Virus record (IMG/VR): IMGVR_UViG_3300027857_000054
Location: 1 to 26,951 of that record
Strand: one strand, 5' to 3'
Origin: a virus
DNA length: 26,951 nucleotides
Shown here: positions 17,257 through 23,036 of the stretch, piece after piece
Layout: every line of letters begins with the position of its first letter
How positions within the stretch are numbered: position 1 is the stretch's first letter
Translations under genes and position numbers: made by a program
Notes under the pieces: generated by a model
Database searches by the model: none
Seen by the model: only the letters and a program-made list of their open reading frames with translations
What the model was told of the DNA's origin: nothing

Positions 17257-17381
17257 TAGCCTGACTTTTTCGCCGCTCGCTTCTCTCGCCGTACCCGGCG
17301 CTTCGCGGCTTTCGTCTTTGGCTTGGGCTTGTAAGTCAAAACCGCGTCAACGAGTGTGTCCAGTTCGCGTGGGGTTTTCAT
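17256..17381 (-). CDS. 41-aa basic protein encoded at the end of the IS
   Basis: Starts at ATG 17381 in ATGA overlap with the transposase stop, with AAGGAG about 9 nt upstream. The sequence has a short acidic-hydrophobic helix (MKTPRELDTLVDAVLTY) followed by a strongly basic Lys/Arg tail (KPKPKTKAAKRRVRREKRAA). Its stop codon reaches into the left inverted repeat, so it is part of the IS. The unrelated-looking second IS1595 element carries a 40-aa protein with the same two-part layout (21802-21924). A DNA-binding accessory role in transposition is inference. Confidence 0.65.
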   Translation of the reverse strand: MKTPRELDTLVDAVLTYKPKPKTKAAKRRVRREKRAAKKSG

Positions 17382-18307
17382 GTGGTAAGCTCCTTGTACG
17401 TGAGCCGCTTTCCGCTGATCGCTCCGACGAAACTGTCCAGCCGCTCGAACGTGTGATTCTTGACGTTGCCTTCGTTCAACCGCCACGCGAACTCGTCCGT
17501 ATAGCGTCCTGTGTGCTTGGGGCTGATGTGGTGATAGACGCCATACACGCCGCGTTTCAGGACTGCCCACACGCTTTCAATGCTGTTCGTGCTGGCCGCG
17601 CCCCTCGCATACTCTCCCGCCGAATGGTTCACCGCGTCATGGTGAAAAAATAGACCGTCCAGATCGCTGAACATCAGATGCTCGTCGGTGTAGAGTTGCG
17701 TCCCCAGTTCGACGTTGGTATGGATTCGTTCCGTGGCGGTTTGCAGGTTTCGTTCTTTCATCGGAGCAAGGAGCGTGCGTCCGCCACGTTCCCGCATTCC
17801 AAGCACGGCAGTTTTACCAACAGGCCCGCGTCCGGCGCGGAGTTTCTTGTGCTCATGCTTGTTTGCTTCCTTGCCACCGATAAAACACTCGTCAAGCTCT
17901 ACCACGCCTTTCAGTTTCTCCATGACGGCGGGAGTCGAGCACGCCTCACGCAGGCGGTGGAGAACAAACCATGCCGACTTTTGCGTAATGCCGATCTCCT
18001 TCGCCAACTGCAAGCTAGAGATTCCCTTGCGGGCGGTCACGAGCAGATACATGGCGTAAAGCCACTTGTGCAGCGGAACCTTGCTACGCTCGAAAATGGT
18101 TCCGGTTCGCACAGTGAAGTCGAAATTCCCACAAGAGTTGCAGCGGTAGAAGCCGATCCGCTTACGGGTTGTAATCCTCTCATTGCTCTTGCAGTTTGGA
18201 CAGGTCACGCCGTTAGGCCAGAGGCGCGATTCCAAGTAGAGCCTAGCGGCTTCCTCATCCGGGAAGGCTTGAAAGAGTTGGAAAGTGCTGATGGTGCTTT
18301 TGCTCAT
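17378..18307 (-). CDS. IS1595-family transposase (ISXO2-like), full length
   Basis: 309 aa. The N-terminal domain has a C4 zinc ribbon (CPNCKSNE ... YRCNSCG) followed by 'FDFTVRTGTIFERSKVPLHKWLYAMYLL' and the helix-turn-helix 'GISSLQLAKEIGITQKSAWFVLHRLR', the standard IS1595 arrangement. The catalytic core shows 'VVELDECFIGGKE' (first Asp), 'LYTDEHLMF' (second Asp), and 'STNSIESVWAVLKRGVYGVYHHIS' with the N-S-I-E-S motif (third acidic residue), then 'GRYTDEFAWRLN'. All motifs are intact, so the enzyme may be active. The gene abuts the upstream passenger gene (TAA directly followed by ATG) and is probably transcribed from the promoter at 18687-18715. Confidence 0.92.
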   Translation of the reverse strand: MSKSTISTFQLFQAFPDEEAARLYLESRLWPNGVTCPNCKSNERITTRKRIGFYRCNSCGNFDFTVRTGTIFERSKVPLHKWLYAMYLLVTARKGISSLQLAKEIGITQKSAWFVLHRLREACSTPAVMEKLKGVVELDECFIGGKEANKHEHKKLRAGRGPVGKTAVLGMRERGGRTLLAPMKERNLQTATERIHTNVELGTQLYTDEHLMFSDLDGLFFHHDAVNHSAGEYARGAASTNSIESVWAVLKRGVYGVYHHISPKHTGRYTDEFAWRLNEGNVKNHTFERLDSFVGAISGKRLTYKELTT

Positions 18308-20778: not shown

Positions 20779-20845
20779 GAATTACGGGGTTTTCAGGGTC
20801 TCGGGGCCGGACTCAGGATGGTACACAGTAGGATCGAACGTAGTG

Positions 20846-20871
20846 ACCACGAGTATTCACTTTACACAAAT
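20846..20871 (+). repeat. Left inverted repeat of the tRNA-carrying transposon
   Basis: 26 bp matching 22857-22882 in inverted orientation with mismatches only at positions 8 and 18 (G for T at 20853, T for G at 20863). It lies 80 bp beyond the 3' end of the tRNA gene. Confidence 0.85.
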
Positions 20872-20951: not shown

Positions 20952-21039
20952 TGGCGGAGGGCGGGGGGATCGGACCCCTGTTCCCAGTCAGGAACTCCCG
21001 TTTATAAGACGGGTTCTAGCCGCCAGCTAGTCGCCCTCC
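20952..21039 (-). tRNA. Class II 8/4 'allo-tRNA', anticodon UAU, CCA encoded
   Basis: 88 nt. The acceptor stem has 8 pairs: GGAGGGCG (21039-21032) with CGCCCTCC (20963-20956). Next come one A, a 4-bp D stem CTAG/CTAG with a 7-nt loop CTGGCGG, then AA. The anticodon stem is CCCGT/ACGGG with loop CTTATAA, so the anticodon is TAT (21006-21004). The long variable arm is GTTCC/GGAAC with loop TGACTG. The T stem has only 4 pairs (GGGG/CCCC) around TCCGATC. G73 and CCA (20954-20952) are encoded. Position 8 is G, paired in the acceptor stem, not the usual T8. An 8+4 acceptor branch is the 'allo-tRNA' form reported in Acidobacteria and phages. Variable arm and G73 point to serine charging, while UAU would read the isoleucine codon AUA. 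It lies inside the transposon. Confidence 0.85.
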
Positions 21040-21060
21040 ATCTACATGGATGGGTACCAT

Positions 21061-21114
21061 GGGCCGCGTTCAGTTTGATTTTCCCTAGACAAGAACTTCT
21101 CTCTGACGCGGCCC
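21061..21114 (-). ncRNA. Structured leader upstream of the tRNA (hairpin with repeated loop)
   Basis: GGGCCGCGTTCAG (21061-21073) pairs with CTGACGCGGCCC (21103-21114) with one bulged T, a 12-bp stem. The 29-nt loop contains TTTGATTTTCCCTAGACA (21074-21091), an exact copy of 21667-21684, which is the predicted 5' leader and ribosome-binding site of the 153-aa gene. There is no T-run after the stem on the minus strand, so it does not look like a terminator. It would sit about 20 nt 5' of the tRNA in a transcript from the upstream gene. A role in tRNA processing or regulation is speculation. Confidence 0.45.
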
Positions 21115-21205
21115 TTTGTGTTATGGCCTTCCGGACGGTGCCCCGTGATACGGTCGGCTACAAACCCTCCTCATGGTTGTTTCTCCCTGAAAACTTGCCA
21201 TGGCT

Positions 21206-21667
21206 TTAGGATGCCGCCTCTGTTGCGGGTTTCGCGGCAGTCTGCCATTCGTAAACGTTAGGGCTTCCACCCTTCCCCTTGTTGACGACTCTGAGTTCGC
21301 CTTTCTTCACTAGAACGTAAAGCGCATCTCGAATCGCCTTGATGGGATCGGCTGCGCCGCCAAACGGAAACGCGCGAAGGCGCTCACGCATCTTCTCGAC
21401 CGTAAAGCGCTGCATAGTTGATCTGGTAGCTCGAATCGCATCGCGCAGCCCGTTTGCGTTTGGTGGTCCGATGGACACGATTGTAGGATTCTTCCTCGGT
21501 GACTGTGGGCGCTCTGCGTCTGAAAGAGCGTGTTGGACGCGCTGCGCTCTTTCCGCGATCTGCAGCATCTCGCGAAGCAACTTGGCTCGCGCTTCGCAAG
21601 CCTTTATCTGTTCGCGAATTTCGGAGGGACTGAGAGTGATGTGGTCTGCTGCTTGAATAATAGGCAT
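21206..21667 (-). CDS. Transposon passenger protein with C-terminal winged-helix-like domain
   Basis: 153 aa from the ATG at 21667, with AGGGA about 8 nt upstream; a GTG at 21685 would remove the leader. Residues about 10-50 form a long helix (SPSEIREQIKACEARAKLLREMLQIAERAQRVQHALSDAE), then a linker. The C-terminal 60 residues ('GLRDAIRATRSTMQRFTVEKMRERLRAFPFGGAADPIKAIRDALYVLVKKGELRVVNKGKGGSPNVYEW') have the order helix-helix-helix-wing with a final 'GEL..V..G.GG.P..Y.W', as in winged-helix DNA-binding domains. It is transcribed from a good promoter at 21691-21719 and lies upstream of the tRNA on the same strand with no obvious terminator between. Function unknown; a regulatory protein is the simplest guess. 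Confidence 0.65.
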   Translation of the reverse strand: MPIIQAADHITLSPSEIREQIKACEARAKLLREMLQIAERAQRVQHALSDAERPQSPRKNPTIVSIGPPNANGLRDAIRATRSTMQRFTVEKMRERLRAFPFGGAADPIKAIRDALYVLVKKGELRVVNKGKGGSPNVYEWQTAAKPATEAAS

Positions 21668-21684
21668 TTGATTTTCCCTAGACA
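21667..21684. repeat. 18-bp leader repeat, copy 2 (copy 1 at 21074-21091)
   Basis: TTTGATTTTCCCTAGACA is identical at both places, in the same orientation, 593 bp apart. Copy 2 covers the predicted transcription start, the ribosome-binding site and the first base of the start codon of the 153-aa gene; copy 1 lies in the hairpin loop before the tRNA. Chance identity over 18 bp at this distance is very unlikely. Confidence 0.8.
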
Positions 21685-21690
21685 CGATTC

Positions 21691-21801: not shown

Positions 21802-21924
21802 GTGAAAGCCGACAAGGGACAATTCGATGAAGTGTTGCGTCGGATGCTAGGGCGCAGTCCGCAGAAAACCGCTGATATACATAAGCCCAAGAAAAAAGTG
21901 AAAGCTACTCGGAAGTCAGCCTAG
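21802..21924 (+). CDS. 40-aa transposon-associated basic protein
   Basis: GTG start at 21802; sequence begins VKADKGQFDEVLRRMLGR and continues with a Lys-rich tail (KPKKKVKATRKSA). An acidic-amphipathic helix followed by a basic tail is the same plan as the 41-aa protein of the first IS. The reading is in the only sensible frame of a 100-bp gap and its 3' end overlaps the 3' end of the transposase on the other strand by 20 bp. A TAGACT hexamer 7 bp before the GTG would make a leaderless message possible. Confidence 0.6.
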   Translation: MKADKGQFDEVLRRMLGRSPQKTADIHKPKKKVKATRKSA

Positions 21925-22832
21925 CGAAGGTCAACGGCTTAAATCCCGCCAAGCGGCGGACCGTCTCTAAGAATGCGCCGTCATCGGCACGCCGATTGAA
22001 GCGGTAACTGAATTCATTTAGATATCGCTGCAAGTGCTTTATCGAAACCGCATGGAATGATCCCGTCAAACCCCGTTTGAAGAGCGAGAATGCTGATTCT
22101 ACCGTGTTGGTGTGAACCTCGCCACGCACGTAAATTTTGTCTTTGTGCTTGATGGTTTCGTGCTTCGATCCGTGGATTCCCGCTCCCATCATGGCGCGAG
22201 GGTAAGCGTGCCATTCGTCCGTCACTATCATTTTGACACTGGGATCAATGTGTTTCTCGATCTGCTCAGAGAGATTATCGGATGAATTACTTTCGATCTG
22301 GATCAGGCGAAGTTCGCCGCCGCGCCTCACGAATGCCCATGACTACATCCTTCGATTTGAGCTTTCCTGTGTGGCCGCGTTGTTTTCCTCCCACATAGGT
22401 CTCATCCACTTCAACGACTCCGCCGAGTTTCGGTATTGCGCCTTCGGCCATTGCTTCGCGGATACGATGATTGAGATACCACGCGGTCTTGTAGCCGCCG
22501 ATTCCCAGGTCACGTTGTAATTGCTTCGCGCTGATCCCTTTTTTAGCATTCAGCACGAGGGCGATTGCTTGGAACCAAACTATCAGCGGCAGATGAGTGT
22601 CATGGAAAATCGTGCCAGACGTAGGCGTGAACTGATTGTGGCAGGATTTCTCCACACAGAGATAGAACCACTTCCGCCGATTCTTTGAGTCAGCCTTGCG
22701 ATCGACTCGCTTTACCTCCTTGCTGCCGCAGGCAGCGCAGCGCACGACTCCATCCGGCCAGCGCATCTTCCCGATATAGGCCAAGCACTGTTCGTCAGTC
22801 GCGAACTTCTCGTAGGCTTCTCGGATGTTCAT
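21905..22832 (-). pseudogene. IS1595-family transposase, frameshifted
   Basis: Two adjoining minus-strand frames together give one transposase of about 308 aa. The first (22832 to about 22332) has the zinc-binding site (CAACGSKE ... LCVEKSCHNQF), 'GISAKQLQRDLGIGGYKTAWYLNHRIREAM' and the first catalytic Asp (VVEVDETYVGGKQRGH). The second (from about 22330) has 'VTDEWHAYPR', 'YVRGEVHTNTVESAFSLFKRGLTGSFH' and the 'YLNEFSYRFNRR' motif. Removing one base, C at 22331 on the minus strand, restores 'GIVRRGGELRLIQIES', which fits the family at this place. So the frameshift is a single-base insertion or a sequencing error. As read, the enzyme is inactive unless ribosomes shift. Confidence 0.85.
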
Positions 22833-22856
22833 GAAGCCATCCTAGCCCACTATTTC

Positions 22857-22882
22857 ATTTGTGTCAAGTGAATAATCGTGGT
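22857..22882 (-). repeat. Right inverted repeat of the tRNA-carrying transposon
   Basis: Inverted partner of 20846-20871, 24 bp upstream of the transposase start codon. Followed by the duplicated target TAGTGA(CC). Confidence 0.85.
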
Positions 22883-23036
22883 AGTGACCTTCGTTTCGTC
22901 ACCAGGCGCGCATTGCTGGATATCGCCACGCTCTCTCCGCTAGATTGAAAGCTTACCGAAGTACACAGGGGCCGTCCGCGACAAAAACCACTGGCCACAA
23001 CCCAGGGCTCTTTTCCCCAGACGGTCCCGCTGAATC

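Follow-up and report, generated by a model that had tools for sequence, protein, structure and literature searches.

In Streptomyces, the chromosomal bldA gene encodes a tRNA-Leu(UUA) that decodes in the standard manner, and a rare codon gates expression through this one tRNA. The passengers described for transposons of the IS1595 family are, to our knowledge, protein genes. Phages equipped with suppressor tRNAs recode stop codons of their own genes, as exemplified by the crAss-like phages using code 15 (PMC9523058, PMC10879173). Among the allo-tRNAs with anticodon UAU (Mukai et al. 2017, reviewed in PMC7609411), one pseudogene overlapping a transposon-related open reading frame (ORF) is reported, and a mobile-element hypothesis has already been stated for this group. 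Here, we analyze a tRNA of this kind located on a stretch of 26,951 nt from a viral collection (IMG/VR record IMGVR_UViG_3300027857_000054, positions 1 to 26,951; subsequently designated the window), where it resides inside a transposon of the IS1595 family. Comparison with related elements revealed that the anticodon of the tRNA is matched to codons of the transposase gene. We consider it reasonably probable that an IS1595-family transposon employs a serine-type tRNA of its own as a working part, which would read codons of its own transposase and thereby provide a built-in translational control.

A class II tRNA shared by IS1595-family elements

In the whole window, ARAGORN made a single tRNA call, a tRNA-Ile(tat) of 88 nt at 20952-21039 on the minus strand, which is exactly the gene described in an initial annotation made from the sequence alone. 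This annotation had also ascribed to the tRNA an 8/4 fold, a long variable arm, G73 and an encoded CCA end, and had placed it between inverted repeats of an IS1595-family element; both assignments held. RNAfold predicted an acceptor stem of 8 bp, a T stem of 4 bp, an anticodon stem of 5 bp and a variable arm of 6 bp with a fold energy of -45.5 kcal/mol (z = -3.5 versus shuffled sequences), the base following the acceptor stem is G, i.e. G73, and CCA is encoded. The gene is enclosed by repeats at 20835-20871 and 22857-22893 (37 nt, 81% complementary) together with a transposase matching PF12760 and PF12762. To discriminate the 8/4 fold from the 7/5 fold, a check proposed in the same annotation, covariation was assessed in an alignment of 17 homologues. 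Double-sided changes were present at 17 of the 26 pairs of the 8/4 fold, a number matched by none of 500 shuffles, and 95.9% of the cells were paired under this fold. Pair 8-82 (G-C), which would be lost in the 7/5 fold, was formed in all 17 homologues, whereas the T-stem pair 66-82 required by the 7/5 fold was formed in none of them. The tRNA of the window thus combines an 8 + 4 acceptor branch, a long variable arm with G73 and the non-serine anticodon UAU, as is typical for allo-tRNAs of the 8/4 type, and lacks the class I structure, 7/5 fold and A73 of an ordinary tRNA-Ile(UAU). It is a member of the UAU group of allo-tRNAs described by Mukai et al. 2017. An Rfam scan at gathering thresholds gave no match for this tRNA, as is expected for an odd class II type.

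Using the conserved end of the transposase as query, we retrieved 80 loci from genomes and 8 from viruses, the majority belonging to Acidobacteria. Since sampling across the whole phylum proved too dilute (6 of 396 genomes), an order-level sample of 397 genomes was used instead, 36 of which carried a close transposase. With ARAGORN and a covariance model, the tRNA was located within most of the elements. In the closest loci, class II tRNAs with anticodon UAU or UAA were detected near the transposase. The ends of the elements share the motif GATTATNCACTTGACACA, and wherever both ends were readable the tRNA was found inside the end motif. The searches suggested in the initial annotation for homologous tRNAs and for IS1595 flanks yielded many intact tRNAs in 37 elements, which is not the picture of a relic. 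The resulting comparison set comprises 30 elements with a UAU tRNA, 7 elements with a UAA tRNA and 64 related transposases near which our searches detected no tRNA of this type; six more elements, truncated by the end of their contig, were counted apart.

The passengers of these elements are mostly unrelated, with few recurring families that are each present in two or three elements, and the only conserved partner gene of the tRNA found among them is the transposase. Transposase and class II tRNA (UAU in 30, UAA in 7) therefore represent the shared parts of the 37 elements. The tRNA, which had initially been regarded as cargo, is one of these two parts rather than a random passenger. Both 8/4 and 7/5 bodies occur in the family, and nearly all tRNAs possess G73, including those with anticodon UAA. 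The anticodon loop ranks with the best conserved regions of the tRNA, and many members retain a CCA-type 3' end. The gene can be located on either strand and at about 60 to more than 2,000 nt from the far end of the element; this variation in orientation and distance rules out a role of the tRNA gene as a DNA element in cis.

Several elements carry additional genes. Defence-like passengers are present in some of them, e.g. Abi_2 in L087. A class I tRNA-Asp(GUC)-like gene is located on the opposite strand inside two elements (L005:5533-5607 and L086:5528-5603, both minus strand). In L051 (5471-5546) and L145, a second small tRNA-like gene with anticodon CGC or GGC and no long variable arm directly precedes the UAU tRNA; the two copies resemble each other, and the pair of tRNA genes follows the transposase at a distance of 0.2-0.4 kb. 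Downstream of a more distant IS1595 transposase, L061 (6335-6420) contains a class II tRNA with anticodon GUC. The tRNA called by ARAGORN at L053:5315-5392, some 120 nt beyond an IS1595 transposase, has an anticodon of four bases (ggcg).

Transposase codons matched to the anticodon

The match between anticodon and transposase codons is most evident at one C-terminal position, subsequently designated column B, which is the variable residue in the motif S-x-KHLQRYL. Here, the codon is ATA in 27 of the 30 UAU elements and TTA in all 7 UAA elements, while neither codon is present at this position in the 64 relatives lacking the tRNA (Fisher p = 9e-24, not corrected for kinship). The six elements cut by contig ends obey the same rule in their respective branches, with ATA in four and TTA in two cases. 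In the window, column B corresponds to the ATA at 22040-22042 (minus strand). A similar picture emerged for codon 4, which is ATA in 22 UAU elements and TTA in 6 UAA elements. Use of these codons is highly selective: in the UAA elements, TTA accounts for 13 of 13 readable Leu codons at column B and codon 4, but for only one of the 168 other Leu codons. The share of AUA among the Ile codons of the transposase is 20% in UAU elements versus 8.5% in the relatives without tRNA.

A transposase tree was built without column B and codon 4. This tree requires no fewer than eight changes between presence and absence of the tRNA. It offers six independent pairs with good support; on average, column B agrees with the tRNA in 5.1 of these, and the opposite direction was observed in none. 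The element family exhibits a tRNA of its own that is matched to codons of its own gene, one of two features of a self-recoding mobile element; for the other, a changed amino acid at these codons, the codon statistics point both ways. Judged from these sequence patterns, the tRNA probably reads dedicated AUA or UUA codons of its own transposase as Ser.

Three further ATA codons of the window transposase, all on the minus strand, illustrate the types of sites involved. The ATA at 22581-22583 lies in the context LPL-x-VWF, where relatives carry T, D, S, H, E or Q. The ATA of codon 133 (22434-22436) is common to the loci L005 and L018, and relatives have G, S, P, K or R at this position. Finally, the ATA at 22226-22228 falls into a hydrophobic, Ile-like column within VKM-I-VTDEW.

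Candidate amino acids and alternative explanations

The initial annotation had proposed that the tRNA puts serine at AUA codons. Bacterial tRNA-Leu needs A73 and tRNA-Ile is of class I, while nearly all element tRNAs have a long variable arm and G73. Allo-tRNAs of Silvibacterium that were tested insert Ser whatever their anticodon (PMC7609411). We addressed the residue by comparing ATA codons with residue profiles of the transposase. In a first test on UAU elements, ATA scored -18 as Ile (n = 58), as compared to +261 for ATC and +71 for ATT. ATA appeared Ile-like in the UAA elements and in the relatives without tRNA, and TTA appeared Leu-like in the UAU elements. L018 was included among the UAU carriers in this test; the covariance model found no tRNA in it, and it was later moved to the set without tRNA. 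In a second test with more data, Ser was the best-scoring residue for ATA codons outside the three most conserved columns, exceeding Ile by 18.8 log units for 38 codons and by 7.7 when restricted to one codon per column; none of 10,000 draws of true Ile codons reached such a preference. An example is the variable residue of LPL-x-KWF, which is encoded by ATA in the window and corresponds to T, D, S or H in relatives. The tRNA body and the scattered ATA sites speak for Ser, which we regard as the somewhat favored residue; serine at AUA is plausible but only partly supported by the codon statistics. The proposal that ATA means Ser everywhere was not upheld since the three conserved columns are ambiguous, two being I/V/M-like and the third mostly Ala in relatives. 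AUA may also be decoded partly by the element tRNA and partly by the AUA reader of the host.

The most likely explanation of these data is as follows. The tRNA, carrying UAU in the branch of the window and UAA in the sister branch, would be made from the element and act in trans. If charged with serine and active in decoding in the native host, it would read AUA (or UUA) at fixed sites of the transposase mRNA, most probably inserting Ser where host tRNAs would give Ile (or Leu). Correct transposase would then arise only in cells expressing the element tRNA, tying the enzyme to an intact element. We see even chances that the transposon family privately reassigns a sense codon in this way, i.e. 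that seryl-tRNA at AUA in one branch and UUA in another is required for correct transposase. The same balanced estimate applies to the corollary that tRNA and transposase co-evolve as lock and key within an element of 2-5 kb.

Several observations weigh against this scenario. The sign test on independent pairs gave a median p of 0.06, and the difference between UAU and UAA corresponds to a single switch on the tree. Three UAU elements (L055, L147, L152) lack ATA at column B, and in the relatives without tRNA this column is mostly Ala and otherwise P, V, K, H or T, but never Ile, Leu or Ser. When all ATA codons of the UAU elements were addressed in a nearest-neighbour test, V/I was preferred over S (S-I -74, n = 109), which is due to the I/V/M-like columns 60 and 406. 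The transposase of the window copy is broken, and the UAU allo-tRNA group was inactive in translation in E. coli (PMC7609411). Moreover, several allo-tRNAs of this type, detected by scanning the same genomes with the 8/4 tRNA model, are not located near any IS1595 transposase. Some are found near an IS1-like transposase (PF03400) rich in ATA, which provides 30 of 101 Ile codons near a UAU tRNA as compared to 36 of 363 in relatives without tRNA. One IS1-like site is ATA in four of the five members with the tRNA, whereas every relative has a residue other than Ile there. However, most ATA sites of these transposases fall into I/V-like columns, and one is conserved in 10 of 25 members for which no tRNA was found, indicating that a conserved rare codon alone is no proof. 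The IS1-like family therefore supports a link between UAU tRNA and ATA codons of transposases but weakens a simple Ser reading, for which it does not serve as a confirming independent replicate.

In L190, L193, L200, L236 and L238, the UAU allo-tRNA by the IS1-like transposase is mostly found 0.2-2 kb upstream and on the opposite strand. Two allo-tRNAs share this body but have a different anticodon (L189:6057-6142, UAC; L194:6042-6127, GCA), and neither has a close IS1595 transposase in its vicinity. A Leu-like tRNA with amber anticodon CUA (L240:3808-3897) is located just upstream of an IS1-like transposase that has no internal stop codon.

Among the alternatives, a bldA-like helper function survives best, although we consider it unlikely. 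Here, the tRNA would be charged in the standard way, with Ile for UAU and Leu for UAA, and would supply or gate rare transposase codons. Some relatives without tRNA encode Ile at codon 4 (ATC, ATT), columns 60 and 406 are I/V-like, and the ATA codons of IS1-like elements near UAU tRNAs fall at I/V positions, all of which would fit such a helper. It is difficult to reconcile with long variable arms and G73, which persist even in the UAA tRNAs, with Ala, Pro, His, Thr or Val rather than Ile or Leu at column B of relatives lacking the tRNA, and with sparse ATA codons scoring as Ser instead of Ile. It also gives no reason why the two branches use different codons, ATA and TTA, at the same C-terminal site.

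A second alternative is a mistranslating or addiction tRNA acting in trans, which would place Ser at AUA codons of host or phage mRNAs or serve as a decoy for tRNA-cutting toxins, with the transposase codons merely adapted. The review mentions a toxin-antitoxin or mobile-element hypothesis for the UAU group (PMC7609411), defence-like passengers such as that of L087 would suit this role, and AUA is rare in the phage genes of the window (12 of 312 Ile codons), so that harm would be tolerable. Nevertheless, adaptation should purge AUA from the transposase, where the codon is in fact enriched and fixed at particular sites, and elements share no conserved partner gene besides the transposase. We consider this explanation improbable; the evident partner of the tRNA is the transposase gene rather than host genes at large.

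Of comparably low probability is a non-translational structured RNA, i.e. a tRNA mimic by which the element would be regulated, either via host proteins that bind tRNA or in a guide-like manner. Regulatory RNAs beside transposon ends have precedents. Failure of the UAU group in E. coli translation and the irregular shapes proposed for some members (PMC7609411) could be explained by such a mimic. However, the anticodon loop is highly conserved, the switch of the anticodon from UAU to UAA is accompanied by that of the codon, many members retain CCA-type 3' ends, and position and orientation within the element vary. Finally, a degenerate relic or chance tRNA-like sequence, for which the frame-broken transposase of the window and the recorded pseudogene of the UAU group (PMC7609411) could be quoted, is very improbable and ruled out at the family level by the compensatory changes across 17 homologues, besides recurrence in 37 elements.

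The window copy and comparison with known systems

The element in the window contains, all on the minus strand, a transposase in two overlapping frames, a passenger ORF of 153 aa and the tRNA. The first part of the transposase (22287-22832; PF12760, PF12762) comprises the zinc ribbon and the start of the DDE domain and is supported also by intact homologues; the second part (21905-22330; PF12762, E 8e-24) covers the remaining DDE domain in the other frame. The ORFs overlap at 22287-22330, and the same break is present in the near-identical contig L002, while the transposase is intact in many relatives. With its tRNA intact and its transposase broken, the window copy is probably a decayed copy. 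The motif GATTATNCACTTGACACA is exact in the core of the repeat on the transposase side (22857-22893) and carries two mismatches in the inner core of the repeat on the tRNA side (20835-20871). A promoter-like site for the transposase (TTGACA, 17, TAGGAT; 22839-22867, minus strand), proposed from its match to the consensus, has its first hexamer within the terminal repeat. The passenger ORF (21206-21667, minus strand) has no Pfam match and is absent from other elements. Searches with it in viral and genome collections retrieved only the same phage or nothing, indicating that it is not a common partner of the family. A repeat of 21 nt beginning with TTTGATTTTCCCTAGACA occurs upstream of the tRNA (21074-21094) and again at the start of the passenger ORF (21667-21687). 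The former copy is located in the loop of a hairpin with a G+C-rich stem (GGGCCGCGT/ACGCGGCCC; 21056-21119) directly upstream of the tRNA.

Homologues of the flanking genes are less than 100 nt apart in the related phage contigs L256 and L257, as compared to 2.27 kb in the window, showing that the element is an insertion in a phage. A duplication of 8 bp at the target is the usual footprint of the IS1595 family and is not required for membership. Equal 8-mers beside the repeats were not seen in the window, whose copy is possibly old and has outer ends that are not exactly defined; assignment to IS1595 rests on the zinc-ribbon and ISXO2-like DDE transposase and on the terminal inverted repeats around the genes. 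A blastn search with the whole element against phage and plasmid records gave no match. The same phage carries a second, intact IS1595-family transposase (17378-18307, minus strand; PF12762, E 2e-40), and a partial copy of the latter, 93% identical, is present in viral contig L086 beside its allo-tRNA element.

Allo-tRNAs with sense anticodons have so far been without a known native target, and a transposase codon that switches with the anticodon supplies one. The coupling makes the decoding question testable with one gene and one tRNA. The matching suggests that an element family in soil Acidobacteria rewrites part of the genetic code for self-control. If true, this would be a natural example of a sense codon acquiring a private meaning through a very small mobile element. 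It would also represent a type of transposition control that, as far as we found, has not been described before, and a possible route for the spread of code changes. Our literature searches brought up neither a transposon family that includes a tRNA as standard part nor codon-anticodon matching between a tRNA and a transposase. As far as the literature searched goes, a tRNA family with two anticodons and its coupling to codons are new; the initial view that no such transposon had been described holds to this extent, the overlap of a UAU allo-tRNA with a transposon-related ORF being already on record (PMC7609411).

With the UAU group as described in the review, the window tRNA shares the 8/4 acceptor and T stems, the long variable arm, the serine identity elements and the anticodon, and the element tRNAs share Acidobacteria and soil metagenomes as source. 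In contrast to the pseudogene reported for that group, the tRNA is intact here, lies within defined IS1595 ends and recurs as part of a family, whose members have 8/4 and 7/5 folds and UAU or UAA anticodons matched to transposase codons. With IS1595 transposons (ISXO2-like, PF12760/PF12762), the elements have in common the zinc-ribbon and DDE transposase, the terminal inverted repeats and the capacity for passengers. The likeness to bldA consists in the gating of a rare codon through one tRNA; bldA differs in being chromosomal and of standard meaning, whereas the element tRNA is part of a transposon. The nearest functional parallel is provided by phages with suppressor tRNAs, in which the tRNA of a mobile element likewise alters the meaning of a codon in the element's own genes. 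There, stop codons in many genes are concerned, while here it would be a sense codon at few fixed sites of one enzyme, encoded by a transposon of 2-5 kb.
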